A program made the translations under genes and the position numbers. From Actinacidiphila guanduensis (GTDB lineage: Bacteria > Actinomycetota > Actinomycetes > Streptomycetales > Streptomycetaceae), in assembly GCF_900103985.1 (NCBI RefSeq), contig NZ_FNIE01000009.1:248001-312000 (forward strand): 64,000 bases of DNA. The letters run 5' to 3'. The notes under the pieces are model-generated. The model was not told where the DNA came from. It made no database searches and was given only the letters and a program-made list of their open reading frames with translations. Shown piece by piece: positions 45,039-56,051 of the stretch. Position 1 is the first letter of the stretch, and each line of letters begins with the position of its first letter.

Positions 45039-45305
45039 TCAGACGCGGCCGCGGCACAGCTCCAGCAGCGTCATTGCGAGCGCGGTGCCGGGCCGGCCGA
45101 GCGCGTCGCCGTACGCGCGCAGGATCTCCATCTCGCGGGCCAGGTGCACCCGGCGGCCGCCGGCGCCCATGCGGGCCTGCTGCACCTGCCCGGAGGCGGC
45201 CATCCGCTCGTGGACCAGCTCGATGATGCGGGTGTCCAGGGCGTCGATGCGCTGCCGGGCCTCGGCGATGACGCGCTCGGCGTCCTGGGGGAGGGTGTCG
45301 CTCAC
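45039..45305 (-). CDS. Chorismate mutase, AroQ type
   Basis: 88-aa all-helical chorismate mutase converting chorismate to prephenate on the way to Phe and Tyr. The AroQ pattern is visible: ERVIAEARQRIDALDTRIIELVHERMAASGQVQQARM, then REMEILRAYGDALGRPG. It is monofunctional, as in other streptomycetes. GTG at 45305 with GAGGAG upstream. About 76 bases before it lies a strong terminator preceded by a short ORF with Phe and Tyr codons, suggesting attenuation. Confidence 0.9.
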   Translation of the reverse strand: MSDTLPQDAERVIAEARQRIDALDTRIIELVHERMAASGQVQQARMGAGGRRVHLAREMEILRAYGDALGRPGTALAMTLLELCRGRV

Positions 45306-45380: not shown

Positions 45381-45406
45381 CGCCCCGGGCCGAGTGGCCC
45401 GGGGCG
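45381..45406 (-). terminator. Attenuator terminator in the chorismate mutase leader
   Basis: CGCCCCGGGCC and GGCCCGGGGCG form an 11-bp perfect stem with a 4-base loop, starting 21 bases after the leader-peptide stop. Upstream, AGGTCGC and GCGACCT (45448-45442 and 45420-45414, minus strand) can form another stem spanning the leader stop codon. Confidence 0.75.
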
Positions 45407-45427
45407 CCGTGGGAGGTCGCTTGGTCG

Positions 45428-45511
45428 TCAGCTCACGCGACGCGACCTGTGGCAGCCGGACGGGCCGGTGCCATAGGTAAACGCGAAGGACGCGGAGGCG
45501 TGCGTGTGCAT
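45428..45511 (-). CDS. Putative leader peptide for chorismate mutase (27 aa)
   Basis: ATG at 45511 opens a 27-codon frame ending in TGA at 45430-45428. It begins [16 protein letters not shown] and ends CHRSRRVS. The SFAFTY segment is encoded TCC TTC GCG TTT ACC TAT; TTT and TAT are very rare codons in this genome. CATACT ends six bases before the ATG, so the mRNA may be leaderless. The peptide is followed by a strong terminator hairpin and then chorismate mutase, the layout of a Phe/Tyr-sensing attenuator. Comparative support is not available to me. Confidence 0.6.
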
Positions 45512-45568
45512 GGCGCCAGTATGGACCACCTCCCCGGCCCGCGCGCAAGGCCCGCCGGTCCCCGACGG

Positions 45569-55891: not shown

Positions 55892-55905
55892 GGAGGCGAC
55901 TCCTT
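55890..55905 (-). promoter_or_regulatory. Hairpin that can hide ribosome site and TTG start
   Basis: On the minus strand the Shine-Dalgarno AAGGAG (55905-55900) is exactly complementary to CTCCTT (55895-55890), which runs into the TTG start codon. A 4-base loop separates them. It is a plausible translational switch for the riboswitch above it. Confidence 0.6.
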
Positions 55906-55910
55906 CCGTG

Positions 55911-56051
55911 GACCGCCGACCGGGTTAGCTGACGGGTTCGGGCGGAAAGGTCGCCCTACGGGTCGGACGCCTGCGCGTCCTGCCCCGATTCACCCCGATG
56001 TGCCTGTGGGTCCCCGGCTCCGGCCGAGGCCGGATTGAGCGGAGGTGGCTC
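55911..56051 (-). promoter_or_regulatory. c-di-AMP riboswitch (ydaO/yuaA class)
   Basis: The minus strand shows the conserved blocks in order: CCGCTCAATCCGG, GCCGGGGACCCA, GGGGTGAATC, AGGGCGACCTTTCCG and CCCGAACCCGTCAGCTAACC, then GGCGG pairing back towards the 5' end. This is the ydaO class, which binds c-di-AMP and in Streptomyces precedes cell-wall hydrolase genes such as rpfA. It ends about 20 bases before the NlpC/P60 gene 2 start. Confidence 0.9.

Follow-up and report, generated by a model that had tools for sequence, protein, structure and literature searches.

A putative phenylalanine- and tyrosine-sensing transcription attenuator upstream of an Rv0948c-like chorismate mutase gene in Actinacidiphila guanduensis and its relatives

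The gene for an Rv0948c-like chorismate mutase (CM) of Actinacidiphila guanduensis is very probably preceded by a ribosome-mediated transcription attenuator that senses the charging of tRNA-Phe and tRNA-Tyr. The element lies within a stretch of 64,000 nucleotides (GCF_900103985.1, NZ_FNIE01000009.1, positions 248,001-312,000, forward strand), hereafter the window, to which all coordinates refer. Its parts, with the gene presumed to be regulated, are the following.

45518-45523, minus strand: CATACT, a -10-like box lying six bases ahead of the leader ATG (sequence)
45428-45511, minus strand: leader open reading frame (ORF) of 27 codons, ATG at 45511, TGA at 45430-45428 (sequence; kept in relatives)
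45485-45487, minus strand: first aromatic codon, TTC (Phe), codon 9; Phe or Tyr here in 97 of 116 leaders
45479-45481, minus strand: rare Phe codon TTT, codon 11, proposed as regulatory; present in 115 of 116 leaders
45473-45475, minus strand: rare Tyr codon TAT, codon 13, proposed as regulatory; present in 114 of 116 leaders
45445-45478, minus strand: hairpin P1, ACCTATGGCA / TGCCACAGGT with inner CCGG / CCGG; its 5' arm holds the Tyr codon (folding)
45442-45466, minus strand: 5' side of the antiterminator (AT): GGCCCG, GGC, GCC, then AGGTCGC (folding)
45414-45448, minus strand: apical stem P2, AGGTCGC / GCGACCT (45448-45442 / 45420-45414), spanning the stop codon (sequence, folding)
45381-45406, minus strand: intrinsic terminator (T), loop ACTC, whose 5' arm is shared with AT (sequence, folding)
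45039-45305, minus strand: type II, Rv0948c-like CM, the presumed regulated gene (Pfam, NCBIfam and PDB matches)

CM is the next gene after the leader; it starts with GTG at 45305 and ends at 45039, and leader and CM are divergent from guaA (GATase and GMP synthase domains). Its identification as a chorismate mutase in the original prediction is borne out by matches of the protein to Pfam CM_2 (31 bits), to NCBIfam NF005894 (104.8 bits, cut-off 73) and, in the PDB, to the intracellular chorismate mutase Rv0948c (44.9 bits, E 1.1e-10). The CM locus of S. coelicolor is presumably SCO4784. A second CM_2 gene of the same A. guanduensis genome (L001, G000:C27:699-935) matches Pfam better, at 83.9 bits, than does the CM of the window. 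By the rule used, an aromatic leader was found within 500 nt upstream neither of this second CM nor of the single class II DAHP synthase match nor of the two prephenate dehydratase-like genes of the genome, so that attenuator control seems to be aimed at the Rv0948c-like CM. A T-box or known riboswitch at the leader was rejected, since nothing reached the Rfam gathering score there. The sole family to do so in the window is the c-di-AMP riboswitch RF00379, at 55899-56051 on the minus strand (72.9 bits).

A scan of genome contigs with the CM protein gave 341 relatives, the best 80 of which were used. In 79 of these best 80 there is a leader whose start codon is in frame with FTYG; the remaining one, L035, has only 170 nt of contig upstream of its CM match. 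The codons TTT ACC TAT GGC recur in 78 of the 79, L004 having TAC. A covariance model, R1, was made from the window and 38 of the 79 relatives (39 sequences in all) and run on 150 genomes of the window's family, with a cut-off of 38 bits chosen after the list had been seen. A CM family search of the same 150 genomes gave 106 over the cut-off of that search, to which G216, with a split match below it, was added, making 107. An R1 match stands upstream of CM in 104 of these 107 CM-bearing genomes, 20-277 nt from the CM match (median 62); the position directly upstream of a biosynthesis gene is the one expected of an attenuator. In the 43 of 150 genomes without an Rv0948c-like CM there is no R1 match of at least 38 bits. 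The ORF and its aromatic codons, whose conservation the original prediction had proposed as a check, are thus kept in the relatives and beside CM, and the leader element is not a product of chance.

Three R1 matches of at least 38 bits lie away from CM, two on both strands of one place in G267 and one in G167; they are plain terminators with no aromatic ORF, and both genomes also have a CM-adjacent match. Five CM copies have no R1 match nearby (those of G176, G224 and G233 and the second copies in G256 and G223), and by the same rule none of the five has an aromatic leader. These observations bear on the view that the ORF is a small protein in its own right, the hairpin an ordinary terminator, and CM transcribed mainly from another promoter. 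A strong terminator after the ORF would fit such a gene. However, the element precedes CM in all 104 genomes with a match of at least 38 bits, the three other matches lack the aromatic ORF, and the C-terminal half of the leader is not conserved as a peptide, which leaves this view very unlikely.

The comparison originally suggested was confined to Streptomyces; the element is found as expected, but reaches beyond that genus, to three named Actinacidiphila (L003, L024, L031) and, in its layout, to other families. G177, which bears the same genus label as the genome of the window, and Actinacidiphila alni (L024) have identical leaders. The CM-less genomes of family f1 (43 of 150 in total) are those of genus g94 and some of genus g1. 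Fourteen of 15 inspected family genomes without the window's type of CM keep a weakly matching CM (22-28 bits).

The leader ORF agrees base for base with the original prediction (45511-45428, a -10-like box before the ATG, and TTC, TTT and TAT codons), its aromatic run being TTC..TTT ACC TAT GGC. From the position of the -10 box, a leaderless transcript probably starts at about 45511, at or beside the A of the ATG. The box was followed in 116 leaders: that of the window, those of the 79 relatives and those of 36 loci out of 40 that had been chosen among the R1 matches for their diversity; the other four, which had no motif, were left out (L182, L188, L189 and L190, three of them from genus g94, where the R1 matches were weak). 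A box stands 5-7 nt before ATG or GTG in 108 of the 116 leaders, as against 27 of 1873 control windows, and is CATACT itself in 70. All 108 starts marked in this way share the frame of the aromatic codons and lie 12-33 nt from TTT. The eight leaders without the standard box include those of L005 type, with an AATAAT-like box.

TTT and TAT are indeed rare, as had been claimed. Five ORFs of the window with Pfam matches use TTT once and TTC 44 times, and TAT never against 53 TAC (1 of 45 Phe and 0 of 53 Tyr codons); the CM genes of the 80 relatives have TTT 0 and TTC 4, TAT 0 and TAC 61. Near-fixed, in-frame Phe and Tyr codons in a short ORF are what an attenuator responding to these end products would be expected to carry. 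Pairing in P1 can explain part of the preference for TAT; nothing comparable is seen at the third base of TTT.

Apart from F(T/S)YG, which is almost invariant in the window's family, the leader peptide is not conserved, and its N-terminal part varies freely. In the window and in L004, L006, L044, L059 and L205 the reading frame beyond FTYG shifts or stops early while the RNA is kept, which speaks for a function of the RNA, not of the peptide, in that part. A search of NCBIfam with two leader peptides returned no family. It might be supposed that the leader is an arrest peptide whose nascent FxFTYG... chain stalls on a small molecule (e.g. chorismate, prephenate or free Phe) and works the same RNA switch. 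The near invariance of F(T/S)YG in the window's family would be accounted for, as would GCHG, in frame in many leaders. Against it stand the changes of frame and early ends just described, the freedom of the N-terminal part and the fact that the leaders of other families share only adjacent Phe and Tyr and not the remaining peptide; we consider an arrest peptide highly improbable.

The terminator is also as first described: its arms CGCCCCGGGCC / GGCCCGGGGCG (45406-45396 / 45391-45381) form 11 perfect pairs, or 13 pairs in the fold, beginning 21 bases after the leader stop. A perfect hairpin of 8-14 bp stands at the position of T in 79 of 80 sequences; L050 has none that is perfect and that of L024 is shifted. 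The hairpin would thus act as an intrinsic terminator between ORF and gene, with a U-tract that is short and poor in the window (TCTTGC; TCTTGCATGG) and modest in many relatives. The leader RNA of the window folds better than 200 of 200 dinucleotide shuffles (z -3.7). P1, which begins at the Thr-Tyr codons, pairs ACCUAUGGCA with UGCCAUGGU in most leaders and ACCUAUGGCA with UGCCACAGGU in the window. For folding and permutation 112 of the 116 sequences were usable (L050, L169, L194 and L205 being dropped); T is present in all 112 full-length folds and P1 in 102, being absent from the minimum-energy fold in 10.

According to folding, AT arises when the loop and 3' arm of P1 pair with the 5' arm of T, and P2 forms its apical stem. 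The pairing GGCCCG / CGGGCC (45466-45461 / 45401-45396), which the original prediction had put forward as a possible antiterminator, forms part of this computed structure. The stem AGGTCGC / GCGACCT across the stop codon is present too, but its role is not that of the alternative then envisaged: it is the apical stem of AT and not its rival.

Whether AT forms depends in the computation on where the free RNA starts. A ribosome footprint of 12-13 bases, counted from the start of the A-site codon, was assumed. If the 13 bases that begin with UUU are hidden accordingly and the RNA stops short of the 3' arm of T, all 80 sequences form AT; under the same assumed footprint 110 of the 112 in the wider set do so. 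The two misses are one leader (L024/L191) whose terminator was misplaced; with the terminator of L024 correctly placed, AT forms. In the window AT pairing, as a fraction of the arm, is 0.73 when the first free base is +12 (stall at UUU), 0.65 at +18 (stall at UAU), 0.38 at +24 and 0 at +30. It fades likewise in four relatives by about +36, so that over the five sequences tested the fading falls between about +24 and +36. This suggests that UUU and UAU are the last codons at which a stall helps; in the folding model the regulatory codons sit where a stall would still work, and later codons do not. AT would therefore be governed by the position of the ribosome and would exclude T, on folding with an assumed footprint and with modest support from covariation.

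Several comparisons set the strength of that support. Among 21 divergent representatives, leaders with their own terminators score -22.9 and permuted pairs -21.6 (sd 0.5), 13 of 2000 permutations being as good as the own pairs; the effect is modest and relatedness is not fully removed. Own-versus-foreign AT pairing between the two main sequence classes gave a mixed result. In the RNAalifold analysis 7 of 23 pairs show changes on both sides, and all seven are in T, while the P1 pairs barely vary (alignment A1). In 43 of 80 sequences no more than five of 200 shuffles reach the AT energy; the window, with 31 of 200, is outside those 43. Since all the sequence is rich in GC, the AT of a single sequence exceeds shuffles by a moderate margin only. 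Before the 3' arm of T exists, AT is the favoured equilibrium structure in the window even if no RNA is masked, and P1 can consequently act only kinetically.

Conservation and folding together argue for the Phe/Tyr-sensing attenuator originally proposed, and we infer that the start site, translation, termination and the response to Phe and Tyr would combine as follows. Transcription would start at or next to the A of the ATG at 45511, and a ribosome would load on the leaderless leader ORF. When Phe and Tyr are plentiful, it would pass UUU and UAU and cover the middle of the leader; with the ribosome at the stop region the GC-rich T would form and transcription would end before CM. If there is no translation, P1 would form first and then T. 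When charged tRNA-Phe or tRNA-Tyr is scarce, the ribosome would be held at UUU or UAU and mask the 5' arm of P1. This would release the loop and 3' arm of P1 to pair with the 5' arm of T, P2 forming the apical stem, while the 3' arm of T is still to be transcribed, and RNA polymerase would read through into CM. Limitation of either amino acid should act, a stall at UUU leaving, in the folding of the window, slightly more AT than one at UAU.

Such an attenuator would be of a known kind, represented by pheL-pheA and aroR-aroF, which we have not found described for an actinobacterial CM in the literature searched. The AroR leader of Corynebacterium glutamicum, reportedly described by Neshat et al. 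in 2014 and likewise an actinobacterial leader peptide of the aromatic pathway, contains Phe-Tyr-Phe. Its transcript is said to be leaderless. It precedes the DAHP synthase gene aroF, whereas the element of the window precedes CM. Assignment of the element to the AroR type was rejected: it is not upstream of aroF, and the class II DAHP synthase of its own genome has, as noted, no aromatic leader within 500 nt. Read-through at aroR-aroF rises on Phe limitation, and the availability of Tyr is without effect, according to the review PMC11802643. The same review describes pheL-pheA of E. coli, where a Phe leader controls an enzyme with chorismate mutase activity (PMC11802643). That enzyme is a fused CM-prephenate dehydratase of a proteobacterium; the element of the window, in contrast, precedes a stand-alone Rv0948c-like CM, has both Phe and Tyr codons and probably belongs to a leaderless ORF. 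The actinobacterial trp, ilvB, leuS and leuA leaders resemble it in their cognate codons and their hairpins or terminators (PMC1262725, PMC8079986), but concern other amino acids. Table 4 of PMC8079986 gives eight attenuators of S. lividans, none of them at CM, and several of the leaders are leaderless. A survey of 2005 reports no conserved structures upstream of phenylalanine/tyrosine operons in Actinobacteria (PMC1262725). It also tells of an earlier study of S. coelicolor ilvB in which swaps of leader codons had no effect (PMC1262725), a result that speaks against the attenuator reading.

Among the matches listed in a search of open-licence literature there was no report of a CM leader or attenuator in actinobacteria, and the element is on that ground taken as new at the actinobacterial CM. 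It would identify where the Phe/Tyr branch is probably controlled in streptomycetes and their relatives, for which the published survey found no such point, and would tie the Rv0948c-like CM to amino-acid supply at the RNA level. Altering the switch could raise chorismate flux in antibiotic producers, and its divergent versions (21 in the window's family by the rule of the permutation set) may provide a natural series for the study of attenuation on leaderless mRNAs in GC-rich genomes.

Outside the window's family 105 CM loci were compared, from 30 of the 33 matching genomes of f18, from 67 of 71 of f4, and eight from six other families. By a fixed rule (a short ORF in which TTY is followed by TAY with no more than one codon between them), an aromatic leader precedes CM in 46 of the 105, many of the loci being close relatives: in f18 29 of 30, in f4 10 of 67 (one doubtful), in f31 2 of 2, in f14 1 of 2, and in f35, f37, f21 and f12 1 of 1 each (f12 doubtful). 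The doubtful loci are L125 and L231. The other 57 of 67 CM loci of f4 were read as having no leader. Typical peptide ends are FFYGYRPAVPVV, FYGDRARSPLRR, FYQGPG and YFYYGTG. A hairpin of at least 7 bp starting at the Tyr codon is found in 41 of the 46, as against 276 of 4600 shuffles that kept base composition only; these hairpins occupy the same place with several unlike sequences. An ORF with a promoter box occurs in 37 of 65 upstream regions; of 260 control regions taken from these loci, 1 has it. Longer U-runs follow the terminator in L226, L228, L229 and L127.

The same loci bear on a further view, in which the conserved CTTTACCTATGGC stretch is an operator or a protein-binding RNA site and the ORF is incidental. 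Such a site would account for the near invariance of TTTACCTATGGC in its nucleotides, synonymous positions included. It would not account for 108 of 108 starts in frame, nor for other families, which keep Phe-Tyr coding and a hairpin at this place but not the nucleotide sequence, and no Rfam family reaches the gathering score at the leader; we hold it to be extremely unlikely. 

Returning to attenuation, we lean, with some reserve, towards a joint reading of an old, actinomycete-wide Phe/Tyr attenuator of the CM branch point with a leaderless ORF. In the window's family it would use rare U-ending codons at the last effective stall positions; it would be absent where CM is absent (43 of 150) and would probably have been lost from most CM genes of f4.

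The leader hairpin of f18 is typically GGGG(A/G)CCG/CGGUCCCC, right after the Tyr codon, and the folds of L099, L105 and L111 of that family seem more branched in their downstream part than those of the window's family. The f4 genus with an FFYGYR leader (L083) has a CM that scores 149.8 bits against Rv0948c, from which the genus is probably mycobacterial.
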